In this document: positions 4,693 through 18,490 of the stretch, in pieces
How positions within the stretch are numbered: the first letter of the stretch is position 1
Layout: each line of letters begins with the position of its first letter
Origin: a virus
Direction: 5' to 3' (one strand)
IMG/VR virus record: IMGVR_UViG_3300017963_000846
Span: 1 to 20,631 of that record
DNA length: 20,631 nucleotides
Made by a program: the position numbers and the translations under genes
Notes under the pieces: model-generated
What the model was told of the DNA's origin: nothing
Seen by the model: the letters and a program-made list of their open reading frames with translations, nothing else
Databases searched by the model: none

Positions 4693-4818
4693 GGTTTATG
4701 GGTTCAAGGGTTCAGGGTTCAGAGGTTTAGGATTAAAAACCTTTGAACCTTTGAACGGGGAATCTTGAACCTGTTTATTAACCTTTGAACGCTGAACCTT
4801 GAACCTTTTAACCTTTTT
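4693..4818. repeat. GGTTCAA-type short-repeat array A (before the tape measure)
   Basis: About 126 bp made of 7-8-base units. The left part reads GGTTnnn (GGTTTAT, GGTTCAA, GGTTCAG), switches at GGATTAAAAACC, and continues as nnnAACC units. The two halves are roughly inverted and could fold into a hairpin in RNA. In transcription order it starts immediately after the stop codon of the gene ending at 4819 and ends just before the tape measure RBS. Bases 4733-4790 match the reverse complement of 9885-9942 at 56 of 58 positions. Confidence 0.9.
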
Positions 4819-5379
4819 TTAAGACGCTTCCACTTCACCCCTCACCAGGACGGCCATTTCTCCCCAGACCACACCATCCTCATTGTCGGGATCATAGGTG
4901 ATAATGGGCACGTCATGCCCTTCCGGCGTAATGGTTTGACCCCCTGCATCGATACGGATTTCTCCGACCTCATAACCGGCCTGGTCCCAGGTGATCAGAC
5001 CGGCGGCTTTATCCGTGGAGCTAATGAGTTTTGTTCCAAAAGAGGCCGTGATTTTGGTCACGCTGGAAAGATCCACCGGGGCTTTAACGTCAATTCTAAA
5101 CGCCCCGTCAGCGCCGGATACGGTGGATCCCTCATAGTTTCTATCCAGGGTGAAAGCGTCGGGGTTGCCCGGGATGGGACAGGCGATGATTTGATACCGC
5201 TGGCTGTCCGGTGCGATGAAATATTCATTCAAATGATAAGCCCCGGAAAGAGCGATCCCCACGACATTGTCAACCGTGGCGCTTCCGTTGGTAAAGGTTG
5301 CCGAGGTTGCCCTGCCGTAAGCCACCAGTATCTTGTCAATGGTGTTATTATGCCCAAGCCATAGGGTTTCGGTATCCAT
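4819..5379 (-). CDS. Unknown virion-associated protein
   Basis: A 186-residue protein starting at ATG 5379 with GAGGAGA upstream, two bases after the stop of the Ser-Gly repeat gene. It is rich in beta-prone residues, Gly, Thr, Asp and Ile, without transmembrane segments or Cys clusters beyond one Cys, and looks like a small structural protein (for example LDRNYEGSTVSGADGAFRID, EVGEIRIDAGGQTITPEG). I do not recognise a family. It is the last gene of the accessory block and is followed by a repeat array. A role on the virion surface or tail tip is inference from context only. Confidence 0.75.
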   Translation of the reverse strand: MDTETLWLGHNNTIDKILVAYGRATSATFTNGSATVDNVVGIALSGAYHLNEYFIAPDSQRYQIIACPIPGNPDAFTLDRNYEGSTVSGADGAFRIDVKAPVDLSSVTKITASFGTKLISSTDKAAGLITWDQAGYEVGEIRIDAGGQTITPEGHDVPIITYDPDNEDGVVWGEMAVLVRGEVEAS

Positions 5380-5381
5380 TA

Positions 5382-6275
5382 TTATTTCTCCTCAATATCC
5401 CGGTCCGTGGTAATCGAGCGTATGGCCCTGGAAACGGTGCGGGACATTATGGCCTTTGCGGCGGTGATGGATTTTATGGCCGGATCGATAATCTCAGAAA
5501 GGCCACCCGTGAGGATTCTTCCGATTACACTCCCGGCAAATGATATCGAGCCGACAAGTTTCCTGAAACCCGAAAAAGCCCTTTTCAGATATCCGGAGGA
5601 CGAGAGCCCTCCATCCGTCTTTCGCTTATAATTAACCCGCCGGGTCAGGCTCGATGAAAATGAAACCGCCCCGGCAATAAATCTCTGGAACGGCCCGGAC
5701 GCCCACTCCAGAAGCCCGGACCATGAAATCGATCCCTGAGCCGATCTGAAATGATTTGCGATCCGTTTGACAATTCCTGACCATGAAATCGATCCGGTCA
5801 GCTTTCTCGACCCGGCAAACTTTCGGGAAAGACCCCCGGACGTATCCAGATCCCCTCCGGGCTCCCTCTTAAAGTTCACTTTTCTCGCAAGGCTTGCCGA
5901 AAATCCCATGACCCCGGAAACAGATCTTTTCAATGCACCGATTGACCAATCAACAAGCCCCGACCATGAAAACTCGCCATCCGTTGCCCTGAAATAGTTG
6001 GCAATCCTGTAAACCATCCCGGATGTTGACAAAACACCCTCTGGGGATCGATGCAGGCTTGCTCGCCGGGTTGTAATGCCTGACTGTGATATGTCCCCTT
6101 GCGGTTTTCTCTTGAACAGGGGAAGCCTTGACACCGACCCGGAGAGATTTCCCATAATTCCTGCGACATTTCTCATGATCTTTTTTAAGGCGGAAACATC
6201 CCCGGAAAAACCATGATCCCCCACGGTATCTCTTTTATAGGCAGCCTTTCTTGTCAACTCTCCGGATAACGGCAT
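5382..6275 (-). CDS. Ser-Gly 20-residue repeat protein (probable virion protein)
   Basis: This 297-residue protein is built almost wholly of about a dozen repeats of about 20 residues following the pattern R-x(3-5)-G-x-(I/L)-x-(W/F/S)-S-G-x-(L/V)-x-R, with cores such as GEFSWSGLVDW, GSISWSGIVKR, GGLSSSGYLKR and GSISFAG. A larger period is also visible: RIAN(Y/H)FR recurs at residues 90 and 171, so an 81-residue block of four repeats has been duplicated. The DNA shows this too, as ACCATGAAATCGATCC occurs near 5720 and 5780. It is basic (many R/K). Regular Ser-Gly turns suggest a beta-solenoid or fibrous structural protein. The same repeat closes the protein encoded at 8116-8877. ATG 6275 follows the glycosyltransferase stop by one base. 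The Ser-rich repeats are possible substrates for that enzyme (speculative). Confidence 0.85.
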   Translation of the reverse strand: MPLSGELTRKAAYKRDTVGDHGFSGDVSALKKIMRNVAGIMGNLSGSVSRLPLFKRKPQGDISQSGITTRRASLHRSPEGVLSTSGMVYRIANYFRATDGEFSWSGLVDWSIGALKRSVSGVMGFSASLARKVNFKREPGGDLDTSGGLSRKFAGSRKLTGSISWSGIVKRIANHFRSAQGSISWSGLLEWASGPFQRFIAGAVSFSSSLTRRVNYKRKTDGGLSSSGYLKRAFSGFRKLVGSISFAGSVIGRILTGGLSEIIDPAIKSITAAKAIMSRTVSRAIRSITTDRDIEEK

Positions 6276-6276
6276 G

Positions 6277-6951
6277 TCACTCCTCGAAATCGTATTTTAT
6301 CAACCCCCAGTGACCGCACCGGACAGATCCGTCTGCCCACACCTTGAATCCGGCATCCGTGGCCCTCTGGCAGAACGCCCAGTCCTCGCTCAAGTATTCC
6401 CTGAAACCGCTCGGATGGGTATGGATGAACGGCTGATAAAAGGCATATGCTTTTTTAAAGGTTATGTTCTGGTCATATTCAAGCTCCGGGTATTTTTTGA
6501 CCATCTCATGGATGACCCTTGACGCCACGAGCATGCACCCGGTGCTGATGTATTGAACCTGGTGGATAGATCCGTTTTTAAACACATCGGACAACGGCGT
6601 TTTATTTCCGTAAAGCGGCCGGATGGCGGTATGCGCCTCATGATCTTTTTTCAGCCGGTAAAACCCCCCGATAATATCCTTGCCGGATTCCACGAGCTTC
6701 ACAATGCAATCAATGGGAATCTCGATGTCATCGTCAACCGTGAAAAGATAATCAAACTCCCTGCCCATATAATCCACAAGGGTGTTCTGCCTGGCCCGGC
6801 AGATCAAACTCTCCCCGACCCTCGGCACCAGACTGGATGTGATCTTATGTTTAGCGGCATACTGCATGGCCTTTTGTAATGACAAGATCGCCCCCCACTC
6901 CGGGGATCTTCTACTGGTAACATTCACATAAACCTTTTTAATTTCCGACAT
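6277..6951 (-). CDS. GT-A fold glycosyltransferase (family 2-like)
   Basis: A 224-residue protein with the layout of a compact phage GT-A glycosyltransferase. A DxD-type metal/nucleotide-sugar motif TVDDDI sits at residues 71-76 (D73, D75) after an arginine-rich helix (LICRARQNTLVDYM). STGCMLV lies at about 136-142. An acceptor-side region SEDWAFCQRATDAGFKVWAD at 188-207 contains the Glu-Asp expected for the catalytic base. RCGHWG at 211-216 gives a candidate metal-binding His. It would transfer a sugar from a nucleotide-sugar donor; donor and acceptor are unknown. ATG 6951 lies inside the end of the methyltransferase gene (14-base overlap) with AGGAGG upstream, so the two are probably co-translated. 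Its place among virion genes suggests it acts on virion proteins, or alternatively on DNA or host envelope. Confidence 0.85.
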   Translation of the reverse strand: MSEIKKVYVNVTSRRSPEWGAILSLQKAMQYAAKHKITSSLVPRVGESLICRARQNTLVDYMGREFDYLFTVDDDIEIPIDCIVKLVESGKDIIGGFYRLKKDHEAHTAIRPLYGNKTPLSDVFKNGSIHQVQYISTGCMLVASRVIHEMVKKYPELEYDQNITFKKAYAFYQPFIHTHPSGFREYLSEDWAFCQRATDAGFKVWADGSVRCGHWGLIKYDFEE

Positions 6952-7366
6952 GCCCCTCCTTTCTCAAATGGGCGATCAGCCAGGTCACCCGGTCGCCATT
7001 GCCCTTTCTCCGATCCTGCGAGGCCAATTTTATCAGCCTGAATCCCGGCCAGAAATCAGCAAAAAAGCTCTGCCGAGAGAATGCCCGGCAATGGGTGTCA
7101 TCTCCCCAGGCATCAGGACTCAGATAATGGGGCACGATCACATTGAGGTTGCCCCCCGGTTTCATGACCCTCAACAGTTCCTTTTTCAATGCCACAAGAT
7201 CATGGATATGCTCCAGTATATGGGAAGCCAGTACGTCATCAAACACACCGCCCAAAAACGGCAGCCCCTGCTCGCAATTCCCCACGACCTCACCATGAGG
7301 GTTGATGTCATAATTGACAAATCCCTTCATGGGATGAGGCCCGCACCCCAGATTAAGCCTCTGCAT
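6938..7366 (-). CDS. Short class I SAM-dependent methyltransferase
   Basis: A 142-residue protein with the class I methyltransferase signature: motif I LNLGCGPHP at residues 4-12, an acidic ribose-binding position at D20 (VNYDIN), motif IV-like region FDDVLASHILEHI at 42-54, and LRVMKPGGNLNVIVP at 65-79. The segment PDAWGDDTHCRAFS at 84-97 is typical of the small Methyltransf_11-like proteins found beside glycosyltransferases. It is shorter than most free-standing members (usually about 180-250 residues) but the SAM-binding core looks intact. It overlaps the previous gene by 14 bases and the next by 14 bases, and I see no convincing own RBS, so coupling is likely. The substrate (glycan, protein or small molecule) is unknown. 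Confidence 0.88.
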   Translation of the reverse strand: MQRLNLGCGPHPMKGFVNYDINPHGEVVGNCEQGLPFLGGVFDDVLASHILEHIHDLVALKKELLRVMKPGGNLNVIVPHYLSPDAWGDDTHCRAFSRQSFFADFWPGFRLIKLASQDRRKGNGDRVTWLIAHLRKEGHVGN

Positions 7367-7952
7367 TGACTGTCAATTCGTAAGTGAATTCCACGGTATC
7401 GTTGGCGATCACGGCCGGGGCATTGTCCACCAGGTTCCGGTCCATCATGGTGCCGCCGGAAACGGCATTGAATATGCCATGCTCATTCACCGTGTAGGCC
7501 GCGCTTGCCTGAATGGTGGCAACGGTCTGATAAATATTGGCCGTGTTCTCGCCGGGCGATGTATCGTTGATCCGGGTTTCCCGGCTGTTCTGCAGGGCGG
7601 TATGGGCGTTTGACTCTGCAGTACCGTCGTCCCCCATGTCATGCCAGGTAAACGCATCAAGGGGATAGGTCGTGGAATCCTGGAGAGAGTCCACCACATA
7701 ATTGGCAAACGCCGTGGTCACTTTCTTGACCGATACCACTCCCAGATCCTCCCACTCCCCGGTCAGGTATCTTTTTATCCTCATCCTCAGGAAGCCGAAT
7801 ATTTCGACCACGCCGGCGAGCTTTGTGGCTTTCAGGGCCTCCATGATCTCCCCCTGGGGAACTCCGCGGGGAACAATTCCCTTGCGAACTTTTTTGGCTA
7901 TCTGCTTTTGCCGGAAAAATCTAACGAGCTTTTTGTAGTAATCTTGAAACAT
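7353..7952 (-). CDS. Virion/tail fibre-like structural protein
   Basis: A 199-residue protein starting at ATG 7952 with a strong purine-rich RBS (GGAGAGGAGA) upstream. The first about 60 residues are basic and helical (YYKKLVRFFRQKQIAKKVRKG). From about residue 80 it resembles a domain common in phage structural proteins: YVVDSLQDSTTYPLDAFTWHD, a Thr/Asn-rich middle, then TVNEHGIFNAVSGGTMMDRN and VIANDTVEFTYELTV, which fits the pattern of 'E-x-GIF...G-T-x-x-x-R' ending with a beta-strand. This looks like a small beta-barrel domain for tail or head decoration. Function beyond 'structural' is inference. It overlaps the methyltransferase start by 14 bases. Confidence 0.8.
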   Translation of the reverse strand: MFQDYYKKLVRFFRQKQIAKKVRKGIVPRGVPQGEIMEALKATKLAGVVEIFGFLRMRIKRYLTGEWEDLGVVSVKKVTTAFANYVVDSLQDSTTYPLDAFTWHDMGDDGTAESNAHTALQNSRETRINDTSPGENTANIYQTVATIQASAAYTVNEHGIFNAVSGGTMMDRNLVDNAPAVIANDTVEFTYELTVNAEA

Positions 7953-8116
7953 TTTGTTGTCTCCTCTCCGTTTTGTTTTCGGCGGTTGAGTTCCGTCCGG
8001 GTTCTTTTTTTATTGATAAACCTCGACCTCAAATCCAAAACCTCGGTTCCATCATTCCATCTTGCTTTCCATTTTTTCGGAAACGGGTTGTAAATTGACA
8101 GCAACAGCCTGACCAT
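7898..8116 (-). CDS. Possible small coupled ORF (72 residues)
   Basis: An open frame that starts with the TAATG overlap on the stop of the preceding gene, the same arrangement used at 8877 and 1829. The product is short, basic and has no recognisable domain (NPFPKKWKARWNDGTEVLDL near the N-terminus). It overlaps the start of the gene at 7952 by 55 bases, including that gene's RBS, which is longer than the other overlaps in this operon. It fills an otherwise empty 163-base gap. It may be a real coupled gene or a leader that lets ribosomes reach the 7952 start; I hold it at low confidence. Confidence 0.4.
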   Translation of the reverse strand: MVRLLLSIYNPFPKKWKARWNDGTEVLDLRSRFINKKRTRTELNRRKQNGEETTKCFKITTKSSLDFSGKSR

Positions 8117-8877
8117 TAAAAAATTCCCTGGATCAATCGGTGCAGAACCGATTTTCTCTTGAGATCCCCACTTTCGGCAAGATCCCCCCCGATTAATCTT
8201 TTGAACTCCGCAAGCCTCTCCAATGCCCCTGCCATATTGAGGGTGTTGCTAATGATATCCCTCCTGGCGTCAAGAATTCTCTCAACATCCCCGGACGAGG
8301 ACAATATCCCGGTAATATCCCGGTAATATTCCGTCCCTGAGAGAGTCTCCATGGTAATGGATACCCCCACCGCATCACCGGCCGAGAAAGGTATGGCCGC
8401 GCTGTTGGTGGTATCATACCCCCTGAACTCATACAGAGAACCGTTTGCGGCCCCGGTGGTATCTATCCCGAAAATCACATTGGAATAATTATAGGCCGAA
8501 ATCCCCAGCGTGGTTTCTCCGTCCGTGCATTCCTTTCCCGCGGCAAAACCGCTTGAGCATCCGCCACCCGATGGATCAGAACACCGGTTGGCGCTCGCCC
8601 CCTCGTCAGAGAGCCCGGAGCAGGCATAAGCCGCAAGGTCGCTTGCCGACAGAGTCAGCCATGACCCTGAGTCTTTTCTAACCTCTATCCTTACTCCGGT
8701 GGATGCAAGGGTCTTATTGCATACCGCGCTTTGATAGAACTGTAAAACAACGCACAGCTTGGTGCCGACCGCCACATCAGACAGCCCGGTATTTTCAGAG
8801 GCCAGATCCGCGGAGTCCGCCTCATTTCTCAATATCGAATTTCCATGCAGTCCGTCAGAGAGATAGTATGTTGACAT
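8116..8877 (-). CDS. Virion-like protein with C-terminal Ser-Gly repeats
   Basis: A 253-residue protein coupled to the upstream gene by TAATG. Residues 1 to about 185 form a Gly/Ser/Thr-rich, beta-type domain with several cysteines (ASANRCSDPSGGGCSSGF region), suggesting a structural domain with disulphides or metal. Residues from about 185 to the end switch to the 20-residue pattern seen in the protein encoded at 5382-6275: YRDITGILSSSGDVERILDA, NTLNMAGALERLAEFKRLIG, GGDLAESGDLKRKSVLHRLI. The last repeat is cut after GIF, mid-unit, by the stop codon. Either the gene was truncated, or the repeat tail was later separated from the 5382 gene by insertion of the intervening genes. Probable virion protein; exact role unknown. 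Confidence 0.8.
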   Translation of the reverse strand: MSTYYLSDGLHGNSILRNEADSADLASENTGLSDVAVGTKLCVVLQFYQSAVCNKTLASTGVRIEVRKDSGSWLTLSASDLAAYACSGLSDEGASANRCSDPSGGGCSSGFAAGKECTDGETTLGISAYNYSNVIFGIDTTGAANGSLYEFRGYDTTNSAAIPFSAGDAVGVSITMETLSGTEYYRDITGILSSSGDVERILDARRDIISNTLNMAGALERLAEFKRLIGGDLAESGDLKRKSVLHRLIQGIF

Positions 8878-9242
8878 TAATCATCGACCCCATAAAGGGC
8901 GTTGCATTTCATTTCGTCATCCGACCCGAACGGAGTGTGGCCGTCCGGGGTTTCCAGACAGCAATCCCCGCAATTTGTGCACCGGTCCTTTTTGATATGA
9001 ACCTCGCATCCTCTTGCCTGATGTATCCATAATTCCTGATCGCCGAGCAATAACAGGTTCCCTTTTTTCCTCATCCAATCGGGCATCAACGACACCAGTT
9101 TCTCCCATGCCTCCCGGATCTCTTTTCCATGGGTTTCATTGTCAAGGTATGTGATATCACACCCCGGCACATTGGCCTTGATCGGATCCAACAGGCACCG
9201 GAACGGTTTATTCGCCTTTGCATTGCACAGGTATTTTTTCAT
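8877..9242 (-). CDS. CxxCxxCC metal-binding protein (YkgJ/UPF0153-like motif)
   Basis: A 121-residue protein starting at ATG 9242 with AAGGACA upstream, 16 bases after the gp10-like gene. Its mark is CTNCGDCC at residues 88-95, exactly the CxxCxxCC signature of the putative zinc- or iron-chelating family (PF03692, YkgJ-like); another Cys follows at 113 and others lie at 6, 16, 28 and 79. Members of that family usually carry the motif near the N-terminus; here it is near the C-terminus, after about 85 residues that I do not recognise (LLLLGDQELWIHQARGCE). It presumably binds a metal ion or cluster. Its job in a phage tail region is unknown; a modifying enzyme subunit is one possibility. Confidence 0.75.
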   Translation of the reverse strand: MKKYLCNAKANKPFRCLLDPIKANVPGCDITYLDNETHGKEIREAWEKLVSLMPDWMRKKGNLLLLGDQELWIHQARGCEVHIKKDRCTNCGDCCLETPDGHTPFGSDDEMKCNALYGVDD

Positions 9243-9258
9243 GCAATGTGTCCTTTTT

Positions 9259-9849
9259 TTATATCCTCTGCCCCTTCATTTTGAGCCTGAAATTTCGCTG
9301 AATGTTGCGCGAGGCCCGGTGTTCCTCGGCCCGCCAGAAGGGATCCAGAATGGGCCGGGCCGGGGTTTTGAACCGGGTGGTGGATTTTCTGACAAACATA
9401 TATTTCCGGGCCACGGATCTTTTTCCCATGCGAGCGCCTTTTCTCATAAAAAATTCCCGGCGGCTCCGGCTCATATCGGCAACGAACCCTTGCTGCTGTT
9501 TCTCGGCGATGCGCTTCCAGGACGCCGATGTTTTGGGTCCGGTCCAGCCGATGCGCATGTCAAAAGGCCGCTGATCCTTGACAAAATACCGCACCGCAAT
9601 GGCCAGCCGGCGCAGCGGCTTGTTTGCCGCAATCCCTTTGCCCTTGGCGCCCCAGGCCCTGGCCAGAAACGTCAACGGGTGAAATTTCCTCCCGCCCGGC
9701 GCGCCTTCCCGGATCTGCTTTTTGAGCAGCCGCATGAGCCGGAACCCTTCCACCTTGACCGATGTGTTCAGGGCTTTTTCCTGGCGCATGGACTCCGTTT
9801 TCAGAGCACGCTCAATATTTGTGAATCCTTTTGTGGTTGCGTGAAGCAA
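9259..9849 (-). CDS. HK97 gp10-like / tail morphogenesis protein (tentative)
   Basis: A 196-residue, very basic protein. The most likely start is TTG at 9849, preceded by GGGAGG at about 4 bases; the first ATG in frame is at 9789 and would remove 20 residues. The C-terminal phrase ARPILDPFWRAEEHRASRNI followed by QRNFRLKMKG resembles the 'P-x-x-P-F-x-x-A' end of gp10-like virion morphogenesis proteins, which usually sit among head-tail joining and tail genes. Here it lies after the tail chaperones, an unusual place. The first gene of the accessory block, it follows a repeat array. The family call is tentative; a phage structural role is more secure. Confidence 0.65.
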   Translation of the reverse strand: MLHATTKGFTNIERALKTESMRQEKALNTSVKVEGFRLMRLLKKQIREGAPGGRKFHPLTFLARAWGAKGKGIAANKPLRRLAIAVRYFVKDQRPFDMRIGWTGPKTSASWKRIAEKQQQGFVADMSRSRREFFMRKGARMGKRSVARKYMFVRKSTTRFKTPARPILDPFWRAEEHRASRNIQRNFRLKMKGQRI

Positions 9850-9868
9850 AAAACCTCCCGGTTTTTAT

Positions 9869-9976
9869 GGGTTCAAGGTTCCCCGTTCAAAGGTTAATAA
9901 ACAGGTTCAATGTTCCCCGTTCAAAGGTTCAAAGGTTTTTAACCCTGAACCCCGGAACCCTGAACCTCTGAACCTT
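9869..9976. repeat. GGTTCAA-type short-repeat array B (after the chaperone genes)
   Basis: About 108 bp of GGTTCAA/GGTTCAAA units that turn, at GGTTTTTAACCC (about 9934-9945), into nnnAACC units. The array overlaps the last 12 codons of the G-T gene and contains its stop. Bases 9885-9942 match the reverse complement of 4733-4790 at 56/58 positions, and 9925-9960 is a perfect 36-base inverted match to 11585-11620. The turn in the middle allows a hairpin in the transcript. Confidence 0.9.
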
Positions 9977-10307
9977 TATTTTGTTTTTTCAGCTCGATCC
10001 GCTCCAGCTTTCTGATCTTTCTCCACATACACTCGCTTAACTCAATATCCAATTCCGCCGCCCTTGCCCTTACTTCCCGGTAATCCAGGCCGATAACCCC
10101 AAGACCCGCGCCCCGCCATTGTGTTCTTACATCTTCCCAGAGATCCAGGACCTCCAGGTTTTCCGGCATAATCGCCGGCCTTTTGTGAGAACCATAATCG
10201 CAGGTTTTACAGGGCGGGATTTTTTTGGCCTTTTTTTTGCTGGCCAGGCATGTTTTGCAGTAGTTTATTCGCTTTGTGTCTGAGATCCATCCCCAGACGT
10301 CGGCAAG
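9939..10307 (-). CDS. Tail assembly chaperone frameshift domain (T part of G-T), DUF1799-type with zinc-ribbon linker
   Basis: This is the -1 frame reached from the G gene at the slippery site 10307-10313; the joined product (10573-10307, then 10307-9939) would be 211 residues: 89 from G plus 122 from this frame. After the shift it reads LADVWGWISDTKRIN, then a two-CxxC ribbon YCKTC...PPCKTC spaced by about 12 residues, then a DUF1799-like domain (LDLWEDVRTQWRGAG, GVIGLDYREVRARA, MWRKIRKLERIEL). An internal ATG at 10169 could start a 76-residue form. The last residues (KGSEVQGSGVQG) and the stop are encoded by the repeat array. In lambda-like phages the G and G-T proteins coat the tape measure during tail assembly. 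The match of site, spacing, stem-loop and downstream domain makes the fusion very likely. Confidence 0.85.
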   Translation of the reverse strand, partial: LADVWGWISDTKRINYCKTCLASKKKAKKIPPCKTCDYGSHKRPAIMPENLEVLDLWEDVRTQWRGAGLGVIGLDYREVRARAAELDIELSECMWRKIRKLERIELKKQNKGSEVQGSGVQG

Positions 10308-10573: not shown

Positions 10574-10592
10574 ACTAAAAACCTCCGCTTTC

Positions 10593-11552
10593 CTATATGA
10601 TCAGATCATATGCGGCCACGCTATTGGTTACCCTGGCCACGATATTGCTGGCCTCTGAACCGTCCGTATAGTATCCCACAAAATCAAGGGACACGATCAA
10701 GCCCTGGGGTCCCTCCACGGGTACGCCGTTGACCGAGTAGAGCAGCTCCTGGATCTCGAATTCCAGGATCGAGCTGGCGCTGGCCGTCACTGTGACCTTT
10801 AAAGAGGTTTCCGTATCCCCGGTGGCTTTGTCCAGCAATGTTTTGCTTTCGAACAGGGTTTTAAGGTTTCCCGTAACCGTCACCAGTCCCTCCGGGATAT
10901 CCCCGCGGATTCCGCCGCCGCCGATGACAAAAGAGTTGGGATCCAGCCCGAAATCCAGACTCAATGAAAGCTCGGTGGCATTGGCCAGGGATCCGCCGCC
11001 CTCTAAAATCGCGGCATCAAAATTTTCGACCCTGGCAAGACTTACCGTTGTCGGGGATCCGTCAAATGCGCTGGTTTCATGGCTCATTTGGGCGCCGAGC
11101 ACTTCCATATTGCAGATCAGCTCTCCATCACCGCCCACGGTCATGGAAAACGTGGAAATCTTGCATCCCACAAACCGCTGGTACACGGCGGATGCCAGAT
11201 CCGTAAACGCTTCCTCCAAGGAAAAGCTGGGCATGGAAGATCCCACCTTGAACTCATGGGTATATGGGTCGCTTCCCGTGGTCGTTGGATCGCCGAACAT
11301 GGCGGCAAGCCAGTAAGGCATGGCGCCGGAATCCGCCGGCACCACAATGGGACCGGAAACATTCTGATTGCCGACAAAGGGCGCTACGGTATTTCGGGAT
11401 CCGGTGAGGGTGGCCGGCGAATTCCTGTTTTTGGCGCCCACAATACCGCAGGTGTTCATGGGTAGAACAAATCCCGCCGTTGCCACGGTGCCATATGCGA
11501 CATTCTCAAACCCAACAATAATCGTTGTATTTACGCCGCGCTGTTGTGTCAT
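10593..11552 (-). CDS. Major tail tube protein
   Basis: A 319-residue protein with the features of Phage_tube_2-type tail tube proteins: an N-terminal strand set (NTTIIVGFENVAYGTVATAG), a central region typical of the tube fold (SGPIVVPADSGAMPYWLAAM, DPYTHEFKVG, PSFSLEEAF), a conserved-looking FVGCKISTFSMTVGGDGEL, and a long C-terminal beta region (ASSILEFEIQELLYSV, PQGLIVSLDFVGYY). It would polymerise into the tail tube through which DNA passes. It is the first abundant tail gene, followed after 19 bases by G. ATG 11552 has AAGGAAA upstream. Length is somewhat above 200-residue lambda gpV-like tubes, but usual for this family. No sheath gene accompanies it, supporting a non-contractile tail. 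Confidence 0.9.
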   Translation of the reverse strand: MTQQRGVNTTIIVGFENVAYGTVATAGFVLPMNTCGIVGAKNRNSPATLTGSRNTVAPFVGNQNVSGPIVVPADSGAMPYWLAAMFGDPTTTGSDPYTHEFKVGSSMPSFSLEEAFTDLASAVYQRFVGCKISTFSMTVGGDGELICNMEVLGAQMSHETSAFDGSPTTVSLARVENFDAAILEGGGSLANATELSLSLDFGLDPNSFVIGGGGIRGDIPEGLVTVTGNLKTLFESKTLLDKATGDTETSLKVTVTASASSILEFEIQELLYSVNGVPVEGPQGLIVSLDFVGYYTDGSEASNIVARVTNSVAAYDLII

Positions 11553-11578: not shown

Positions 11579-11659
11579 GGTTCCGGGTTCCGGGGTTCAG
11601 GGTTAAAAACCTTTGAACCTCTAAACCTTTGAACCTATAAACCCCTGAACCTTTAAACC
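11579..11659. repeat. GGTTCAA-type short-repeat array C (before the tail tube)
   Basis: About 81 bp: GGTTCCG, GGTTCCG, GGTTCAG then a turn at GGTTAAAAACC and a run of nnnAACC/nnnnAACC units. In transcription order it begins directly after the TAG stop of the gene ending at 11660 and runs to about 20 bases before the tail tube RBS. Bases 11585-11620 are identical to the reverse complement of 9925-9960. Confidence 0.88.
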
Positions 11660-12130
11660 CTATATTAGCGGATCATTCCCGATGCACATTCGCTCCCTGA
11701 ACCCAACGGCCACGTCCGCCTCGAAATTCGGAAAACTGGTCAGGGTATCCGTGATAAAGTCATAACCCATCACAAACCCGGCGGGCTTGGCCGAGCGGAT
11801 CACCGCCAGGATCCGGCCGATGAACTCCACCAGCTTGCCCGTGGCCGTGAATTCCTCCGCATTGCTTTCGGCCCGGGTCACCAGGGATGAATCATTGACC
11901 ACGATAAACAGGCCCACACCATATTCCACGATCCGGTTTTCCTCGTCCGCGGATTTTGAAGGGGAGTGAAACTGCACGTCCGGAGCATCCGACTCGCCCG
12001 GAGGCTCCCGGTCGTCCTGATCCAGATACACATTGGGCTTTTGTCCGTAATGGAACCGGCACCAGGCGATCAACTCCGCGTCCTGGGCCACGGCAGTAAA
12101 CAGATTGTTTGTGAGAGTATAAACATCCAT
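11660..12130 (-). CDS. Probable tail terminator / tail completion protein
   Basis: A 156-residue protein between the head-tail connector and the tail tube gene, the usual position of the tail terminator (lambda gpU-like). Features fit a small alpha/beta ring-forming protein: an N-terminal helix (YTLTNNLFTAVAQDAELIAW), a central strand pair (IVEYGVGLFIVVND), a helix (GKLVEFIGRILAVIRSA) and a C-terminal strand set (NFEADVAVGFRERMCIG). I see no diagnostic motif, so the function is inferred from size and order. ATG 12130 has only a weak RBS, and the gene is flanked on both sides by repeat arrays, which also makes it the only gene fully isolated between two arrays. Confidence 0.65.
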   Translation of the reverse strand: MDVYTLTNNLFTAVAQDAELIAWCRFHYGQKPNVYLDQDDREPPGESDAPDVQFHSPSKSADEENRIVEYGVGLFIVVNDSSLVTRAESNAEEFTATGKLVEFIGRILAVIRSAKPAGFVMGYDFITDTLTSFPNFEADVAVGFRERMCIGNDPLI

Positions 12131-12137
12131 GTTTGTG

Positions 12138-12323
12138 GGTTCCCCGCTTTGGGTTCAGGGTTCAGGGTTCAGGGTTGAAGGATAACAAGGTTCAAGGTTC
12201 TGGGTTCCGGGTTCAAGGTTGAAGGATGATTCCTTTTTTTAACCTTTGAACCTCTGAACCTTTGAACCTTTGAACCTCTAAACCTTTAAACCTTTGAACC
12301 TTTGAACGGTGAACCTATGAACC
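12138..12323. repeat. GGTTCAA-type short-repeat array D (head/tail junction), one arm of a 68-bp perfect inverted pair
   Basis: About 186 bp. The left part has GGTTCAG, GGTTCAA, GGTTCTG and GGTTCCG heptamers and GGATAACAA/GGATGATTCC spacers. After a T-tract at 12234-12240 it becomes nnnAACC units (TTTGAACC, TCTGAACC). In transcription order it begins right after the TGA stop of the gene ending at 12324. Bases 12173-12240 are identical over all 68 positions to the reverse complement of 18348-18415. Confidence 0.92.
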
Positions 12324-12635
12324 TCAGCGGACTTTAGGCCGCTGGTTCCGGATCAGCCGGATCTTCTTGCAATAGGCATCCTGCTCCAAAACTTTGGGAT
12401 ACCGCCACGTCAGGCCGTCATATACCAGGGTGTCGGTTCGATAGGTGACGGTTGGCACATCCGACGCCTTGGCAATGACATCCACAAAATCAAACACCGA
12501 ATTGGCATCCGCATCCGTGCCGTGTCCCACAATGATCACCGAAATATCCGACGTGTTATAGGTCACAGGCGCCGCGAACTCGTCCGTGTTGAAAAACACG
12601 GACAAATCCGTGGAGAGCTGATCGGCCAGGGTCAT
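12324..12635 (-). CDS. Head-tail connector/stopper protein (gpFII-like, tentative)
   Basis: A 103-residue protein immediately following the previous stop (TAA then ATG 12635). The opening LSTDLSVFFNTDEFAAPVTY fits small head-tail joining proteins that begin with 'V/L-FF-x-x-D-E-F-A', and the rest is beta-rich with TLVYDGLTWRYPKVLEQDAY near the C-terminus. Such proteins close the portal after DNA packaging and connect to the tail. Position between the capsid protein and the tail terminator agrees. I am confident of the structural role and moderately of the gpFII-like class. A repeat array starts directly after its stop codon. Confidence 0.72.
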   Translation of the reverse strand: MTLADQLSTDLSVFFNTDEFAAPVTYNTSDISVIIVGHGTDADANSVFDFVDVIAKASDVPTVTYRTDTLVYDGLTWRYPKVLEQDAYCKKIRLIRNQRPKVR

Positions 12636-12902
12636 TTATCGGGACTCCTCGGCATCGTCAGATTTTTTAACCGGCTCCAGAAAATTACGCATACCCTTGG
12701 GCACATTGTCCAGACAGATAATTTCGCCGCGCTTTAACTGTATTCTGCCCTGAATCTCATACAATTCATAAGAGGGGATGCCTTTCACAGCTCCGGTCTT
12801 GAGCTTTTTTAATCTGCCCATCCGAGGTTCGGCCTGTTTATTGGTCAGTCCGATTTTTCCGGTAAACAGGTCCGCCGTTTGTAATGTTATATGTTCTTTC
12901 AT
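12636..12902 (-). CDS. Small unknown protein downstream of the capsid gene
   Basis: A basic protein of 88 residues (from ATG 12902; a TTG at 12905 is an alternative that sits nearer the GGGAG motif). It begins KEHITLQTADLFTGKIGLTN and contains SYELYEIQGRIQLKRGEIIC, with no recognised domain. Position between the capsid and connector genes suggests a small head completion or adaptor protein, by inference only. It is preceded, on its own strand, by the capsid stop and a hairpin, and abuts the next gene with no space. Confidence 0.65.
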   Translation of the reverse strand: MKEHITLQTADLFTGKIGLTNKQAEPRMGRLKKLKTGAVKGIPSYELYEIQGRIQLKRGEIICLDNVPKGMRNFLEPVKKSDDAEESR

Positions 12903-12924
12903 CAAAACATATCTCCCTTTTCAT

Positions 12925-12946
12925 AAGGCCGACTGATATCGGCCTT
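12925..12946 (-). other. Hairpin after the major capsid gene
   Basis: AAGGCCGA and TCGGCCTT form a perfect 8-bp stem with a 6-base loop, starting 9 bases after the capsid stop codon in the minus-strand transcript. It is not followed by a T-tract on that strand, so it is not a classical terminator. It may protect or process the capsid mRNA, or partially attenuate downstream genes. Confidence 0.6.
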
Positions 12947-12955
12947 TGATTTTCC

Positions 12956-13903
12956 TTATGTCAGGGTTACCAGACAGGCATTTTGCCAGTATCCATAACC
13001 CACGGTTCTCCAGGTATCGATGCCGTATTGGTGGGCATCGTTGTCGAACTCATACTCGGAGCCGTAGCCCTTGACCTTCATATCCACCTCGGTTTCCTCC
13101 TGGCGGATCAGCGCCTTGACATTGCTGTCGGTGCGAAACACCGGAAACCGGTCCGTCCATGACGTAAACCGGGGGTTGGGAACGACCTTGATGGTAAAAT
13201 CCTTCTGGAGCTCGGAAAGGGCCAATTGACTGGCCGATGCCTGAAATGGCGTGGCCACAGCCTGGAGTCCCACCTGCATAAATGTGATTGGAACCATGGC
13301 CAGAAACTGACTGGCATCCTCGTTCATGGGCTCGCCCCGGTCATCCTTGAATCCGATAATGGCCTCAATGCCTTTGAAAATAGCCCACTGCATTTCTTCA
13401 ACACTCGGGGCCGTGGTGGTTCCATGATTCACTGCAGGCACCGCGGAAATATCAACGCTAATGTCATTGTCCTGAGTTCCGGAATCGCCCTCGCTATGGT
13501 CGGTGTCGAAAAAATACTGTCCGTCATAGCAGGTTGCGGATTCTCCGGCGGCGATAAGAGTTGACAAAAGGCTCGCCCAGTGGGCGTTGGCCCGGCGGGC
13601 CAATTCCGCAATCCTGATCAGGGCCTGTCCTGAATGGTCCCGCCTGAGATCGCGCACCAGAATATCAATGGTGGCCTCATAATGAATATTGGTCAGGGTC
13701 AGTCCGGCCTCACGCAGGGCCTTGGCATTGCGACCGCCGATCCATTGGCGCAGCACCGGTGCCATGCCAAGCCAGGCATACTCTTCGGACTTCTGGTCCG
13801 ATGTGAAATAATTGGATAACGCATCCACCCATGAGGCGCCGATATCCTGCGCCAACGTCTTATAAAATGCGCCGATGACTTGACGTTCGGTTAATCTATC
13901 CAT
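12956..13903 (-). CDS. Major capsid protein, Mu gpT-like
   Basis: A 315-residue protein with the hallmarks of the Mu-like major head subunit gpT family (HK97 fold): TERQVIGAFYKTLAQDIGAS at the start, the early WLGMAPVLRQWIGGR, a long helix region with ILVRDLRRDHSGQA, YFFDTDHSEGDSGTQDND at about 125-145, the middle domain QFLAMVPITFMQVGLQAV, and a C-terminal strand set (VPNPRFTSWTDRFPVFRTDS). It would form the capsid shell. Genes around it match lambda-like portal and terminase types, so the head module is mosaic. ATG 13903 follows AAGGAAA. About 105 non-coding bases separate it from the decoration gene. Confidence 0.9.
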   Translation of the reverse strand: MDRLTERQVIGAFYKTLAQDIGASWVDALSNYFTSDQKSEEYAWLGMAPVLRQWIGGRNAKALREAGLTLTNIHYEATIDILVRDLRRDHSGQALIRIAELARRANAHWASLLSTLIAAGESATCYDGQYFFDTDHSEGDSGTQDNDISVDISAVPAVNHGTTTAPSVEEMQWAIFKGIEAIIGFKDDRGEPMNEDASQFLAMVPITFMQVGLQAVATPFQASASQLALSELQKDFTIKVVPNPRFTSWTDRFPVFRTDSNVKALIRQEETEVDMKVKGYGSEYEFDNDAHQYGIDTWRTVGYGYWQNACLVTLT

Positions 13904-14008
13904 TTTATATTTCCTTTCTTATTTTTTTTTGGTTCCGAGTTCTATATTCAATGTCCAGGGCTGAAAAGTTTTTACCCCCCAGAACTGCCTAAGCTCTCGG
14001 CCCCATTT

Positions 14009-14776
14009 TTATGAATTATCCTTATCCGCCCAGACACCTTTGGACTTGCGAACAATCCATCCGGTGGCGTCCCCATACTCGATGTCCAGATAATCGTGTC
14101 TTTGCGATGTGGCCTTGGTGTTTTTCAGGCCATGGTTATCCGTGCCGCTGGAATCTTTATAAATAATGAGATCGCTGGCGTTGGGCGCCACATCCAATTC
14201 CACGGTGCCGAAAGCTCCCACGTTCATAATTCGGAATGCCATTGCGGCCACCGCCGGCAGGGTAATGGTCTTGTCATCCGTATCCACGCAAATCAACTTT
14301 CCGGTATCCTGATTGTCCAGGGTTTTATCCACAGAAGTGGTCTCGGCAGTAAATCCTTCATGGGGATCTTTAAGAACGCCTGCGTCAAATTCCACTATTC
14401 CATAACCGGCGGAAACATATCGGCACATAAAGCCGATAAATACTCCGGAAGTTGGCACGAACGAAAAGGTGTTGTCATCCTGGGCGTACACCGCGCACCC
14501 CACATCCGTGATTACCGCGCCGGTAATAGCCAACTTAGCCTTGCCTTTTTTAACCACCCGCACATTGATGGCGGCGGCGGCGCCCGTCGAATTATCGGCC
14601 CTGTCCTCGGCAAACCCGACAAACTGATCGGAAGATGTCAGGGGCTGGGCATGTCCGGTGGCTATAACCAAGCCAACGGCGGCGCCTTCATAAATAACAT
14701 CCGATGCAATCATCGGAAATTCATTGCGATCCCCGATTTCAAAATCTCTCGGAGTGTCTGCTACTAATGTCGTCAT
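14009..14776 (-). CDS. Head decoration-like protein with extra C-terminal domain
   Basis: A 255-residue protein. The first about 130 residues look like a capsid decoration/cement protein: DFEIGDRNEFPMIASDVIYE, EGAAVGLVIATGHAQPL, QFVGFAEDRADNSTGAAA, INVRVVKKGKAKLAITG and a D/G-rich end (YGIVEFDAGVLKDPHEGF). The remaining about 120 residues are a separate beta-rich domain (TGKLICVDTDDKTITLPAVA, GTVELDVAPNASDLIIYKDS, GDATGWIVRKSKGVW) not needed for decoration in lambda gpD (about 110 residues). It resembles surface-exposed fibre-type domains and may display a binding surface on the head. ATG 14776 has AAGGAGA upstream. Gene order protease, scaffold, decoration, capsid is the lambda order. Confidence 0.82.
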   Translation of the reverse strand: MTTLVADTPRDFEIGDRNEFPMIASDVIYEGAAVGLVIATGHAQPLTSSDQFVGFAEDRADNSTGAAAAINVRVVKKGKAKLAITGAVITDVGCAVYAQDDNTFSFVPTSGVFIGFMCRYVSAGYGIVEFDAGVLKDPHEGFTAETTSVDKTLDNQDTGKLICVDTDDKTITLPAVAAMAFRIMNVGAFGTVELDVAPNASDLIIYKDSSGTDNHGLKNTKATSQRHDYLDIEYGDATGWIVRKSKGVWADKDNS

Positions 14777-14812
14777 AATGTATCTCCTTGTTCTTGCTGT
14801 TTGTTTGGGTCG

Positions 14813-15364
14813 TTATTTTACGACTTTGCCCTGCAGGATTTTAACCTGGCCCTTGGCATTGGCCTTGAACCACGCCAGGTATGATTCATAATCCCCGTCG
14901 AATTCCTTGCGAACTTTGGCGTCTTTGTCCCATGTCTTTTTGGCCCGCTCCTCCACGGGTAGATTTTTGTCTTGTTCCGTGGTGTCTACATCCTTATCCG
15001 TGGACGGATCCGGCAGGGCCTCCGGGGATTCAACCCAATGGGTTGTTATGACGTTCTTCCGGAGTTTTCTTTCCTCAGCCAGAATTTTGACCGCGGCCTC
15101 CGGGCCGGTGGTTGTCCCGTCGAACATGAGCTCCTGGATCAATTTTTCATGCCCGGAAATGAGCTGGTCCTGAACGGACTTGATGCGCTCGCGTTCCTGC
15201 TGGGCGCCCTGGGCCATTGCCTGGTCCTGACTTTCCTTGGTTGCTTTTTCCGCGCCTTTCTTTTCTCCGTCTGTAAATCCTCGATTATAGCCGGCCGCAT
15301 CCCCTTCCTCGATCAGGGCGCTGGCAATATCAGGATATTTGGATTTGAATTCTTCCAGTGTCAT
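14813..15364 (-). CDS. Scaffold-like capsid assembly protein
   Basis: A 183-residue, highly charged protein predicted to be largely helical: a Gly/Asp-rich start (ASALIEEGDAAGYNRGFTDG), a long Lys/Glu/Gln coiled-coil-like middle (KKGAEKATKESQDQAMAQGA), the phrase GPEAAVKILAEERKLRKN that also occurs in C-terminal parts of phage S49 proteases, and a C-terminal acidic/basic tail. In lambda the scaffold Nu3 is encoded inside the protease gene C; here it is a separate frame whose ATG 15364, with AAGGAG, lies 35 bases before the protease stop. Role as internal scaffold is inferred from context and composition. Proteolysis by its neighbour would be expected during head maturation. Confidence 0.72.
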   Translation of the reverse strand: MTLEEFKSKYPDIASALIEEGDAAGYNRGFTDGEKKGAEKATKESQDQAMAQGAQQERERIKSVQDQLISGHEKLIQELMFDGTTTGPEAAVKILAEERKLRKNVITTHWVESPEALPDPSTDKDVDTTEQDKNLPVEERAKKTWDKDAKVRKEFDGDYESYLAWFKANAKGQVKILQGKVVK

Positions 15365-16253
15365 TTTTTAACTCCTTGTTTAATTGTATTAATTGTTTAC
15401 CCACTGTTTTTTCTTCCTGCATCACCGGCAGGGTGGTATGTAAAAGCCGGTCTAATGTGGAAACACCGTCCACCAGACCGGCACTGATGCCCTGGTTTCC
15501 GATAAATACCCGGCCGTCGGCCATATTTTTGAGCACAGTTTCTGAAGACACGCCCCGGTTCCGGGCCACCGCGTCAACAAACACGGTATAGATGTAATCC
15601 ACCCGGTCTTGGAGAAGCTGTTTGCCGTCTTTGGACAGGGGTTTATACTGGGACACCATGCGCTTGTATTTGCCCGCATAAATCTCCGTGGTTTTGATGC
15701 CCACACGTTTTTCATACTGGGAATAATCCACATGGGTGGCCACCACGCCGATGGACCCGGTCTGCACGGTGTCCCCGGAAATATACAGCTTTTCCGCGGC
15801 GGACCCGATCCAGTAGGCAGCCGACGCCATGAGCCCGTCCGAATATGCCACAATGGGCTTTTGATCGCGCCCTTCAAAGATCAGGCTGGCCAGCTCCAGG
15901 GTTCCGTCCACGGTACCGCCGGGAGAATCGATATCCAGCAAAATTCCATTAATGTCAGGATTGTTTAATGCATCGGCAATGTCCCGGGCCGCCAACTCCG
16001 TGGACACGCCGCCGGATATTCTGGTGAACAGGTTGGCCCGCTTGGCGGTCACCCCATGAATGGGAATCACGGCCATGTCATTGACCACGTCATATTCTTT
16101 TGTCTCGTTTTCCAGAGGCCGGCCGATTTTGGCCTCGATGGCCGCAATGTCGATTTTTTCCCCTCTCAGATGCGTGGAATAGATTTCCTGAATCTCATAG
16201 AGCTTTTCCGGCATGATGGCCCAGGGGCTGGTGAGAATGTCAATTATCTTCAT
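15330..16253 (-). CDS. S49 family head maturation protease
   Basis: A 307-residue SppA/lambda-C-type serine protease that should process the prohead. MAVIPIHGVTAKR at about 60-72 starts the fold. GILLDIDSPGGTVDG at 103-117 forms the oxyanion region. The nucleophile Ser144 is in DGLMASAAYW (139-148). TGSIGVVATHVDYSQ follows at 165-179, and the general-base Lys is in IYAGKYKR (K195 or K197). All expected residues are present, so it looks active. It overlaps the end of the portal gene by 14 bases and the next gene by 35 bases. Length fits phage single-domain S49 proteases without a fused scaffold. Confidence 0.93.
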   Translation of the reverse strand: MKIIDILTSPWAIMPEKLYEIQEIYSTHLRGEKIDIAAIEAKIGRPLENETKEYDVVNDMAVIPIHGVTAKRANLFTRISGGVSTELAARDIADALNNPDINGILLDIDSPGGTVDGTLELASLIFEGRDQKPIVAYSDGLMASAAYWIGSAAEKLYISGDTVQTGSIGVVATHVDYSQYEKRVGIKTTEIYAGKYKRMVSQYKPLSKDGKQLLQDRVDYIYTVFVDAVARNRGVSSETVLKNMADGRVFIGNQGISAGLVDGVSTLDRLLHTTLPVMQEEKTVGKQLIQLNKELKNDTGRIQIQIS

Positions 16254-17859
16254 TGGTTTCGTCCTCTTTGTCGAATCCTCTGTTTTCCCGGCCCGGCTGG
16301 TTTTCTTGGGCAGCGGCTTTTTCCGGCGCAGTCAACCCCGCGTCCTTTTTCATCTGTTCTTCCCGGGACCGCTGGGGAAATTTCTGTTCCCAGTCCCCGC
16401 CGGTCAATGATGCGGTTTCCTCGGAGTGGGTGGTCAGGGTTAACGCCAGGCGTTTTTCAGCGGCCTGGACTTCCTTGAACTCGTCGATCTGACCCTTGGC
16501 CGGCCCGGTCCATTCGGATCCCAGGTAGGCCATGCGGATGAGCGGATCCCCGCTTAAAAATCCGGGCGCCGCGATCCGGCCCAGAGCCACGGCCTCGGTC
16601 ATCCACAGTTCATACACCGGCTTGCACAGGTGGTCCTCCAGCCATTTGCGCCGGCCCATGTAAAACCGCCAGGCCTCCAGCAGGGCGGCCCGGGCCGCGG
16701 AATAACTGGCCGTAAAATGCTTGATCAGGATTTCAAAGGGTAGTTCCAGGGCCACGCCGATCTGCCGGGAGATAGCCAGCACGAAATCGTTAAAGGATTG
16801 GTTGGGCCGGCCCGGGTTTGCGGATTCAATGCTTTCGTTGGGCAGTAAATCCAGGATGGCGCCGGGGCCCATTTTATAGTCTTTGTCCGCGGCGGATCCC
16901 CCGACTTCGTTGGTGGGCTGCATGGGATACATGCCCGCATGATATTCGGATTTGATAAACACGGTAAAAAACGCACTGATCACCGAGGCATCCACCTCCG
17001 CGTCCGTGTACCGGCCGAGCTGTTTCAGGGTTTCCATGACCGGCGCCAAGTCGGGCACGCCCCTGGATTGACCCACCCGGAGTTTTCGGAACAGGTGCAA
17101 AACGTTGGATCGTCCGGTTTTGGGGCCAAATGCGGGCACTACAACCCAATCGTTTTTTTTGGCATAGATGTTGCCAGGATGGCCTTTTAAAAAATGGTAT
17201 TCTTTGGGGCGGCCGTTAGAGTCCTTTAAAATCCCGCCGGCCAGGGCTTCCGTGTCCTGCTTACTGTCTTTGTTGCAGACCCGGTCCGCCTCGATGAGCT
17301 GCAGCTGCAGGGAATAGGGGCGAAACGGGCTGGACTTTGACGGGGTGAGAACAAACACGTCCCCGTTTTCCAATGTGGACCGGAAGGATAGATCCTGGAG
17401 TCCGGCAAAATTCTGGGCCGAGGTCGCATCGCAATCTTTTGACTCGGACCAGAGCCGCCATTCCGCCTCGGTTCGCGCCTCCCATTCCTGGGCCTGGTCC
17501 TCTCCCATGTTCAAAATCTTGCGGTCAATCCGGGATTTGAGTTTCAGGCCCGTGCCCACCACGGACGTGACCTTGGTGTGGATGGCGCCGCCGGCCAAAG
17601 GATTGTTGCGGATAAGGTCCCTGGACCGCTCCCGAAGGTCGGGAAGCTCGGCAATGATGTCCGTGTCCGCGTCTCCGGAGGGCGGGGACCATTCGGACAA
17701 AGACCGCCGTTTCTTGGACGCCCCGTGATACGCCCCGGCCAGGGCCATGGCATACCGCGCCCTCATGCGCTGGGCGCCCCGCTGCGGTGAAAAGAAATTC
17801 ACGGCCCGGTCGATAATATTTTCTTTAACTTCGATTTTCTTTCGTCGAACTTCTCTCAT
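16240..17859 (-). CDS. Phage portal protein, lambda family
   Basis: A 539-residue protein of the lambda gpB type. N-terminal signature: RYAMALAGAYHGASKKRRSL near residues 35-54, RSRDLIRNNPLAGGAIHTKV and VVGTGLKLKSRID. The middle contains LENGDVFVLTPSKSSPFRPY, LQLQLIEADRVCN and HLFRKLRVGQSRGVPDLAPV, and the C-terminal half has ISRQIGVALELPFEILIKHF, TASYSAARAALLEAWRFYMG and the wing region YELWMTEAVALGRI, all typical of the family. It forms the dodecameric DNA entry ring, contacting the terminase. The start ATG 17859 has an AAGGCAAGG purine run, which is itself the edge of a short-repeat element. The stop overlaps the protease start by 14 bases. Confidence 0.96.
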   Translation of the reverse strand: MREVRRKKIEVKENIIDRAVNFFSPQRGAQRMRARYAMALAGAYHGASKKRRSLSEWSPPSGDADTDIIAELPDLRERSRDLIRNNPLAGGAIHTKVTSVVGTGLKLKSRIDRKILNMGEDQAQEWEARTEAEWRLWSESKDCDATSAQNFAGLQDLSFRSTLENGDVFVLTPSKSSPFRPYSLQLQLIEADRVCNKDSKQDTEALAGGILKDSNGRPKEYHFLKGHPGNIYAKKNDWVVVPAFGPKTGRSNVLHLFRKLRVGQSRGVPDLAPVMETLKQLGRYTDAEVDASVISAFFTVFIKSEYHAGMYPMQPTNEVGGSAADKDYKMGPGAILDLLPNESIESANPGRPNQSFNDFVLAISRQIGVALELPFEILIKHFTASYSAARAALLEAWRFYMGRRKWLEDHLCKPVYELWMTEAVALGRIAAPGFLSGDPLIRMAYLGSEWTGPAKGQIDEFKEVQAAEKRLALTLTTHSEETASLTGGDWEQKFPQRSREEQMKKDAGLTAPEKAAAQENQPGRENRGFDKEDETNEDN

Positions 17860-17865
17860 AGGCCC

Positions 17866-17920
17866 TTGCCTTTCATTCGACGTTCGATGTTGAATGTTCG
17901 ATGTTGGACGTTCATCTTTT
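17866..17920. repeat. GTTCGATG-type heptamer element, copy 1 (between gpW and portal)
   Basis: About 55 bp of 7-base units (CGTTCGATGTTGAATGTTCG) that, in transcription order, start immediately after the gpW stop codon and supply the portal RBS at the other edge. On the minus strand it starts AAAAAGATGAACGTC and ends GAATGAAAGGCAA. The same flanks enclose a similar element inside the terminase gene (20442-20499), so this is a dispersed element rather than local slippage alone. Confidence 0.85.
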
Positions 17921-18139
17921 TCATGGATCCGTAACCGGCGTCACGCCCCGGACCCGGATCCCGCCGTCGGTTTCCCGCTGGACCAGGGTCTGGAGGCGTT
18001 TCCGCTCGTCCATTAAGGTTTTTAAATCCGCGTTTGTTTTGGAACGTCCGCCGATAGAATAGGACTGTGCGCCCGTGAGGATGGCCGTGATAGCCGTGTC
18101 GATCTGTTCCAACTGCTCGGTATAGGTAAGGATCGCCAT
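17921..18139 (-). CDS. Head-tail joining protein, gpW-like
   Basis: A 72-residue protein matching lambda gpW-type sequences: YTEQLEQIDTAITAILTGAQ, SYSIGGRSKTNADLKTL, DERKRLQTLVQ. I chose ATG 18139 because the family begins about there. An upstream ATG at 18181 would add 14 residues (LQNKQPL...) that would be translated through a hairpin. gpW stabilises packaged DNA and makes the site for the next connector. A run of eight T's lies immediately before the ATG, preceded by GGGG, which sits in the stem of a hairpin (18140-18197). The C-terminus (RVRGVTPVTDP) ends directly at a heptamer repeat element. Confidence 0.9.
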   Translation of the reverse strand: MAILTYTEQLEQIDTAITAILTGAQSYSIGGRSKTNADLKTLMDERKRLQTLVQRETDGGIRVRGVTPVTDP

Positions 18140-18197
18140 AAAAAAAACCCCTATGCATAGTGGTTGCTTGTTTTGCAACACTATATCATGGGGTTTT
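18140..18197 (-). promoter_or_regulatory. Terminator-like hairpin covering the gpW ribosome binding site
   Basis: On the minus strand AAAACCCC...ATAGTGTTGC pairs with GCAACCACTAT...GGGG across an AAAACAA loop, with one bulge and an unpaired stretch of about 5 bases. The right arm ends GGGG followed by T8 and then the gpW ATG with no gap. It has the form of an intrinsic terminator, but the GGGG is also the only RBS candidate for gpW, so the fold would both stop transcription and hide the RBS. An attenuator or conditional RBS is the natural reading; I did not compute its energy. Confidence 0.65.
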
Positions 18198-18223
18198 GAC
18201 TAAAAACGCTTATCCGAACTTGT

Positions 18224-18263
18224 TGTATGCTAAAAAGAGGTTAATGTAGGGTAAAAAGATGTT
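18224..18263. repeat. Two 21-bp direct iterons
   Basis: TGTATGCTAAAAAGAGGTT (18224-18242) and TGTAGGGTAAAAAGATGTT (18245-18263) match at 16 of 19 positions with a 21-bp period, that is two helical turns. They lie in the non-coding stretch between the small HTH gene and gpW. Possible operator for one of the nearby HTH proteins or packaging-type sites; no proof. Confidence 0.55.
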
Positions 18264-18279
18264 GACAGGGGTTTTTTGA

Positions 18280-18490
18280 GGTTCAAAGGTTCCCCGTTCA
18301 AAGGTTTCCCGTTCAGAGGTTCAAAGGTTTAGAGGTTTAAAGGTTAAAAAAAAAGGAATCATCCTTCAACCTTGAACCCGGAACCCAGAACCTTGAACCT
18401 TGTTATCCTTCAACCTTGAACCCGGAACCCAGAACCTTGAACCTTGCCATCCTTCAACCCTGAACCCTGAACCTATAAACCTATAAACCT
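18280..18490. repeat. GGTTCAA-type short-repeat array E (right end of head module), second arm of the 68-bp inverted pair
   Basis: About 210 bp, the longest array. GGTTCAAA-type units on the left turn, at the A9 run (18346-18354), into nnnAACC units. A 44-bp higher-order unit (CTTGAACC, CGGAACC, CAGAACC, CTTGAACC plus a TGTTATCCTTCAA / TGCCATCCTTCAA spacer) is present twice in tandem here, once in array D. Bases 18348-18415 equal the reverse complement of 12173-12240. It provides the last two codons and stop of the HTH gene ending at 18481. Confidence 0.92.

Follow-up and report, generated by a model that had tools for sequence, protein, structure and literature searches.

What are the arrays of short GGTT and AACC units that lie between genes in the late region of a siphophage-like virus, and where did they come from? 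The question is raised by the IMG/VR record IMGVR_UViG_3300017963_000846, the entire 20,631 bases of which were analysed here and are referred to as the window. The genes read in this late region encode a terminase (with a GpA nuclease domain), a head-tail adaptor, a portal, a head protease, a major head protein, tail proteins and a tape measure, and every gene is located on the minus strand. We consider it moderately likely that the five arrays of the window, here called J1 to J5, are gene-less, hairpin-forming relatives of the intervening sequence (IVS)/S23p-type elements of Desulfobacteria, which came from a host pool and are tolerated between cistrons.

A preliminary description of the sequence had placed five GGTT...AACC arrays at gene ends, and all five were recovered where it had located them. 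J1 (4693-4818) separates the gene at 4819-5379 from the tape measure gene (2192-4672), J2 (9870-9975) is located between the DUF1799 gene at 9939-10169 and a neck-like gene (9259-9849), J3 (11579-11659) between the gene at 11660-12130 and a tail tube-like gene (10593-11552), J4 (12138-12323) between the genes at 12324-12635 and 11660-12130, and J5 (18280-18490), which contains higher-order copies of 44 nt, between the gene at 18481-18717 and the head-tail adaptor gene (17921-18181). Since all genes are on the minus strand, each array has the stop codon of its upstream gene at its high-coordinate end. The stop codons at 4819, 11660 and 12324 abut the arrays and the stop codon at 18481 falls within the first units of J5, in agreement with the earlier claim. 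The gene at 9939-10169 terminates inside J2, with an array-encoded 3' end in which the last approximately 12 codons, KGSEVQGSGVQG, are made of array units. The arrays occupy the gap from the stop codon to the next ribosome-binding site, which is the sole non-coding space present.

All arrays follow the plan of a dyad, in which an arm of GGTT units is followed by a short centre and a facing arm of AACC units, with units of 7 to 8 nt (J4 has one 8-mer arm and one 7-mer arm). The plan is identical to its reverse complement and therefore reads the same on either strand; the arrays are given here without a strand. Clusters in the window contained up to 5 GGTT units or up to 8 AACC units, spaced by 7 to 8 nt, whereas clusters reached at most 3 units when the window was shuffled 200 times with its dinucleotides preserved, placing the arrays far above chance. 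The polarity was GGTT-first in all 28 arm pairs from phages and hosts, and by 25 to 1 in viral contigs. A strict asymmetry between a 7-mer arm and an 8-mer arm was also considered and set aside as suggestive only (20 of 28 pairs, shuffle p 0.04). A phage from another metagenome record, L009, is 99.9% identical to the window phage and has the same arrays.

Two pairs of arrays are related as inverted copies. The same 105 nt are found in opposite orientation at 4701-4805 in J1 and 9870-9974 in J2, with 90% identity, and about 156 nt are shared in inverted orientation between 12152-12307 in J4 and 18281-18436 in J5, with 89% to 97% identity, from which it follows that arrays were copied whole.

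The unit consensus, which the preliminary description had proposed to look for in the host genome, was also found in bacterial chromosomes. The exact 18-mer GGTTCAAAGGTTCAAAGG was present in 26 of 389 genomes in a sample of one Desulfobacteria class, compared with none for the reversed control. The chromosomal arms likewise occur as GGTT-first pairs, often 30 to 223 nt apart. The hosts were surveyed over 400 kb of one genome and at sampled loci. In these 400 kb, which are 85% coding, 55 of 65 heptamer-type (period-7) tandem arrays, representing many families, were intergenic, as were 28 of the strong hairpins (z of -6 or lower) versus 5 in coding sequence. The placement at stop codons seen in the window did not extend to the host chromosomes, in which no clear stop preference was observed (20 of 34 co-directional cases were nearer the stop).

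One of the chromosomal families has GGTTC arms around a 152-nt core, and is present in at least 40 copies in genome G185 and in up to 20 copies in other genomes (listed as L317-L366, many of them from G185), with homologous cores in G358, G363, G237, G381, G139 and others. The element has the ends GTAACCGTTCAC...GTGAACGCCTAC, and 17 of 34 copies were flanked by a perfect 8-bp target duplication, while all other duplication lengths were at the shuffled level. This GGTTC-armed family is a transposed element that has reached many chromosomal sites. More generally, the differently spelled hairpins at the same joints of related phages allow a scattered bacterial repeat to be recognised as a single class of element, which is probably mobile.

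The link to S23p genes comes from a 488-nt version of this element (L390), which shares these ends, is flanked by an 8-bp duplication and encloses an open reading frame (ORF) for a four-helix bundle that resembles PF05635, the S23p/IVP family of proteins of 23S rRNA intervening sequences; a PF05635 search match was obtained at that site (G185:C50:115906-116217). PF05635 was found in none of 14 control genomes, in all 7 array-rich genomes (3 to 27 copies) and in 20 of 30 genomes of the class drawn regardless of arrays. Flanks scored as complementary at z above 4 surrounded 13 of 22 and 18 of 24 PF05635 loci in two sets (31 of 46 when pooled). Among control genes of comparable size, such flanks were seen at 2 of 128 (Fisher p 2.5e-11 and 2e-16 for the two sets), and among Y1-transposase loci at 1 of 15. 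Furthermore, a heptamer-type array was located within 350 nt of 20 of 24 PF05635 loci, compared with 22 of 129 control genes. The flanking arms belonged to many families, several of which also occur in phages: GGTTCA, which is the family of the window, GGTTCAC, AAGGCTG, GACAGAG/TCTGACC, AGGTGTCAG and AATCATA.

As RNA, the arrays are among the strongest predicted hairpins of the window, with coding-strand z-scores from -2.0 to -6.8, and the RNA-hairpin joints postulated in the preliminary description are borne out as structure, in the form of long imperfect hairpins. The predicted energies were -39.8 kcal/mol for J1 (z -5.6), -44.4 kcal/mol for J2 (z -4.2), -34.2 kcal/mol for J3 (z -3.6), -75.6 kcal/mol for J4 (z -6.8) and -72.7 kcal/mol for J5, for which z was -2.0 over the whole stretch and about -6 for 18247-18461.

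To these observations we add a comparison of the same gene joints in related phages, which were found by portal-based searches and include relatives with 70% to 85% amino acid identity as well as more distant phages. The close relatives have dyads of the same plan at the same joints, built from unrelated heptamers such as GAAGGCT, TTAGGTT and GTGCCTAAA. At joint 11660, the units are GGTTCA in the window, TTAGGTT in L010, CAATCATAAATCAA in L013 and GAAGGCT in L014, and at joint 12324 they are GGTTCAA in the window, GTGCCTAAA in L010, GTGCCTTG in L013 and ACAAATA in L044 and L046. A given gene joint has been filled by different families in different phages, and within one phage several joints have a family in common. 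Some joints are empty in some phages: the adaptor-portal joint is 61 to 105 nt long in four close phages, and measures 1 to 2 nt (L011, L014, L022-L024 and L027) or is a small overlap in most others. The portal and protease genes overlap by 14 nt in the window, L011 and L016, and are separated by a dyad of 89 to 97 nt in L012 and L013. As a separate observation, the dyad inserts at this formerly overlapping joint (L012:4649-4737 and L013:2702-2798) provide the portal gene with a new stop codon. Nested dyads, in which the hairpin of one family is located between the arms of another, were seen at the capsid joint of L010 (15524-15678), in L157 (986-1053) and in the G225 stretch L137 (at about 78093-78314 of the 400-kb join). 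No match to the GGTT arrays was obtained in the collection of isolated phages, and the plasmid collection gave partial matches in 3 records, for example in Photobacterium and Burkholderia replicons.

The recurrence of strong hairpins at the same joints, with unrelated sequences and similar sizes (101 to 141 nt at joint 11660 in four phages), would also be expected if the arrays were selected intercistronic RNA elements that set the decay, processing or relative expression of the late mRNA, such that only the pairing is selected and the unit sequence is free to drift or be swapped. We regard this as unlikely, because many of the joints turn out empty or short in one relative or another, as seen for the adaptor-portal joint, for the overlapping portal and protease genes of three close relatives and for the tube joint of only 19 nt in the window. 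In addition, the occurrence of identical unit families in host chromosomes and the copying of whole arrays point to invasion rather than drift.

Even less probable is an origin in place, by which heptamers expanded locally through polymerase slippage and quasi-palindrome template switching with no mobility involved. In many bacteria, the most frequent long simple repeats are heptanucleotides (Mrazek 2007, cited in PMC4679880), and near-identical phages do differ within their arrays by whole units, with an indel of 15 nt between L022 and L023 and of 12 nt between L044 and L046. However, the inverted copies of full arrays in the window and the change of a joint from a 14-nt gene overlap to a dyad of 89 to 97 nt argue against slippage, and the 8-bp target duplications around host copies speak against it for the chromosomal GGTTC family.

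The preliminary description had interpreted the arrays as shared recombination joints between interchangeable modules, and we find an exchange of modules between phages at these sites very improbable. The expected association with synteny breaks was seen at 2 of the 5 arrays only, those at 4819 and 9939, which coincide with differences in gene content (the block from g8877 to g4819 is missing in L010, and L013 has an insertion of 1165 nt), and identical inverted arrays could in principle recombine. In contrast, the joints at 18481, 12324 and 11660 are flanked by the same genes in relatives that lack a GGTT array at the place in question, and this conserved gene order means that they are not module breakpoints. 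The array sequences also differ between phages at the same joint, so that no shared homology is on offer, and relatives hold arrays inside modules as well, between adaptor and portal, portal and protease, and tube and next gene. It is equally hard to believe that the arrays are intrinsic (bidirectional) transcription terminators between the late genes, since, although stable hairpins are located 3' of stop codons and host arrays are somewhat over-represented between convergent genes (13 versus 8 expected by length, p 0.04 overall), the stems are followed by TGAAATG, AAAAACCGG, TTAAATT, ACAAACATG and CAAAAAACC with no coding-strand U-run, and the arrays are situated within one late operon with essential genes downstream.

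Several observations weigh against an origin of the phage arrays from mobile host elements. No clear target duplications were seen at the arrays of the window, which also lack the GTAACCG ends of the transposing chromosomal family; an array in L010 is the only one with TTAAAAAA on either side, and it is situated in A-rich DNA. The window and the viral contigs searched yielded no S23p/IVP gene. Nor was a mobilising enzyme recognised among two candidates. IS66, which was suggested by the GTAA ends and the 8-bp duplications, was rejected because 3 of 4 genomes with the GGTTC element lack it. The Y1 transposases of repetitive extragenic palindromic (REP) sequences, termed TnpA-REP or REP-associated tyrosine transposases (RAYT), were rejected because their loci were not enriched in heptamer-type arrays (0.12 per kb, versus 0.16 in the G225 stretch). 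A putative transposase gene between distant arrays in L129 turned out to be an ordinary host gene.

If the arrays are nevertheless relatives of the IVS/S23p-type elements, as we favour, the phage copies would have arrived from the host repeat pool and spread inside the phage genome, as suggested by the inverted copies J1/J2 and J4/J5. Selection against gene disruption would let them persist only between a stop codon and a ribosome-binding site, where no gene is broken. In the late transcript, base pairing between the arms would give an extended double-stranded stem, which is probably open to cleavage by RNase III, as the IVSs of rRNA are. Phage T7 makes use of RNase III hairpins between its cistrons. 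Such cleavage could leave the insert near neutral, or allow it to act as an intercistronic processing hairpin.

A broader proposal, which we advance tentatively and hold to be rather less likely than the origin of the phage arrays given above, is that heptamer dyads mark the termini of selfish elements built around S23p/IVP genes. These elements would form a large class of fluid sequence, located mostly outside rRNA genes and invading phage late operons as gene-less hairpins. This class might explain much of the unexplained heptamer load of bacteria, with S23p or a partner enzyme driving the synthesis of unit arrays and their mobility. Heptamer repeats and S23p proteins have until now been separate puzzles with no known function, and the statistics presented here connect the two. 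The 8-bp duplications provide a mobility signature for one family, and the same repeat families are seen to colonise phage gene joints. Together, these results open both the role of S23p and the question of how the repeats arose to direct tests. A literature search, which had most subscription journals outside its reach, retrieved no paper linking heptamer dyads to S23p genes outside rRNA.

The window contains other repeats and hairpins. A single arm of a second heptamer family (GAACATC/GTTCGAT or GTTCGAT/GTTGGAC, family D11) is located at 17866-17924 between adaptor and portal, and the family is also present at this joint in L010, while L012 and L013 have other families there. A second arm of the GTTCGAT family at 20442-20500 is 86% identical to the first and is translated within the terminase ORF as ERRTSNVQRPTLNEG. 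The stretch at 18129-18271, upstream of the head-tail adaptor gene, contains TGTCAACATCTTTTTA-like repeats and a hairpin, AAAACCCCATGATAT...ATGCATAGGGGTTTTTT; it recurs in L010, L012 and L013, with similar hairpins in L015, L030, L050 and L054, and is possibly a conserved late control element. A short hairpin, AAGGCCGATATCAGTCGGCCTT, follows the major head gene at 12903-12955; relatives have dyads at this joint instead. An Rfam search of the window gave no match.

How do the arrays compare with known systems? The attC sites of integrons have the order RYYYAAC ... GTTRRRY, with the AAC box first, whereas the arrays have GTT first and AAC last. Heptameric simple repeats, such as TAACTGA in Beggiatoaceae, the G-rich repeats of Xanthomonas and Nostoc and the short tandemly repeated repetitive (STRR) sequences of cyanobacteria, are likewise intergenic tandem repeats of period 7, but they have been described as direct repeats, while those examined here are two-armed dyads, associated with S23p/IVP genes and found in the late operons of phages. 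The chromosomal GGTTC element resembles miniature inverted-repeat transposable elements in being short and high-copy, with terminal inverted repeats and 8-bp target duplications; the arrays of the window differ in having neither conserved ends nor clear duplications. REP sequences and bacterial interspersed mosaic elements, with their TnpA-REP, are also intergenic, palindromic and high-copy, with RNA hairpins possible at 3' ends. However, REPs are defined by a conserved GTAG beside a short palindrome (PMC8266576), and the window arrays have no constant GTAG with a palindrome of 20 to 50 nt, but tandem heptamer arms of many families. The 23S rRNA IVS of Coxiella burnetii contains an S23p ORF, and its complementary terminal repeats pair into a stem; RNase III excises this IVS, which carries tandem GACAGAT heptamers in numbers that vary among strains (PMC4990558). 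The window arrays differ from it in their location between phage late protein genes rather than within a 23S rRNA gene, and in having no PF05635 ORF between their arms, as is also the case in viral relatives. They resemble it in their complementary terminal arms, which form a long stem, and in the tandem heptamers near the ends, their variable number and scattered distribution; GACAGAT is itself among the families found here, and the arms of the chromosomal relatives enclose the PF05635 gene.

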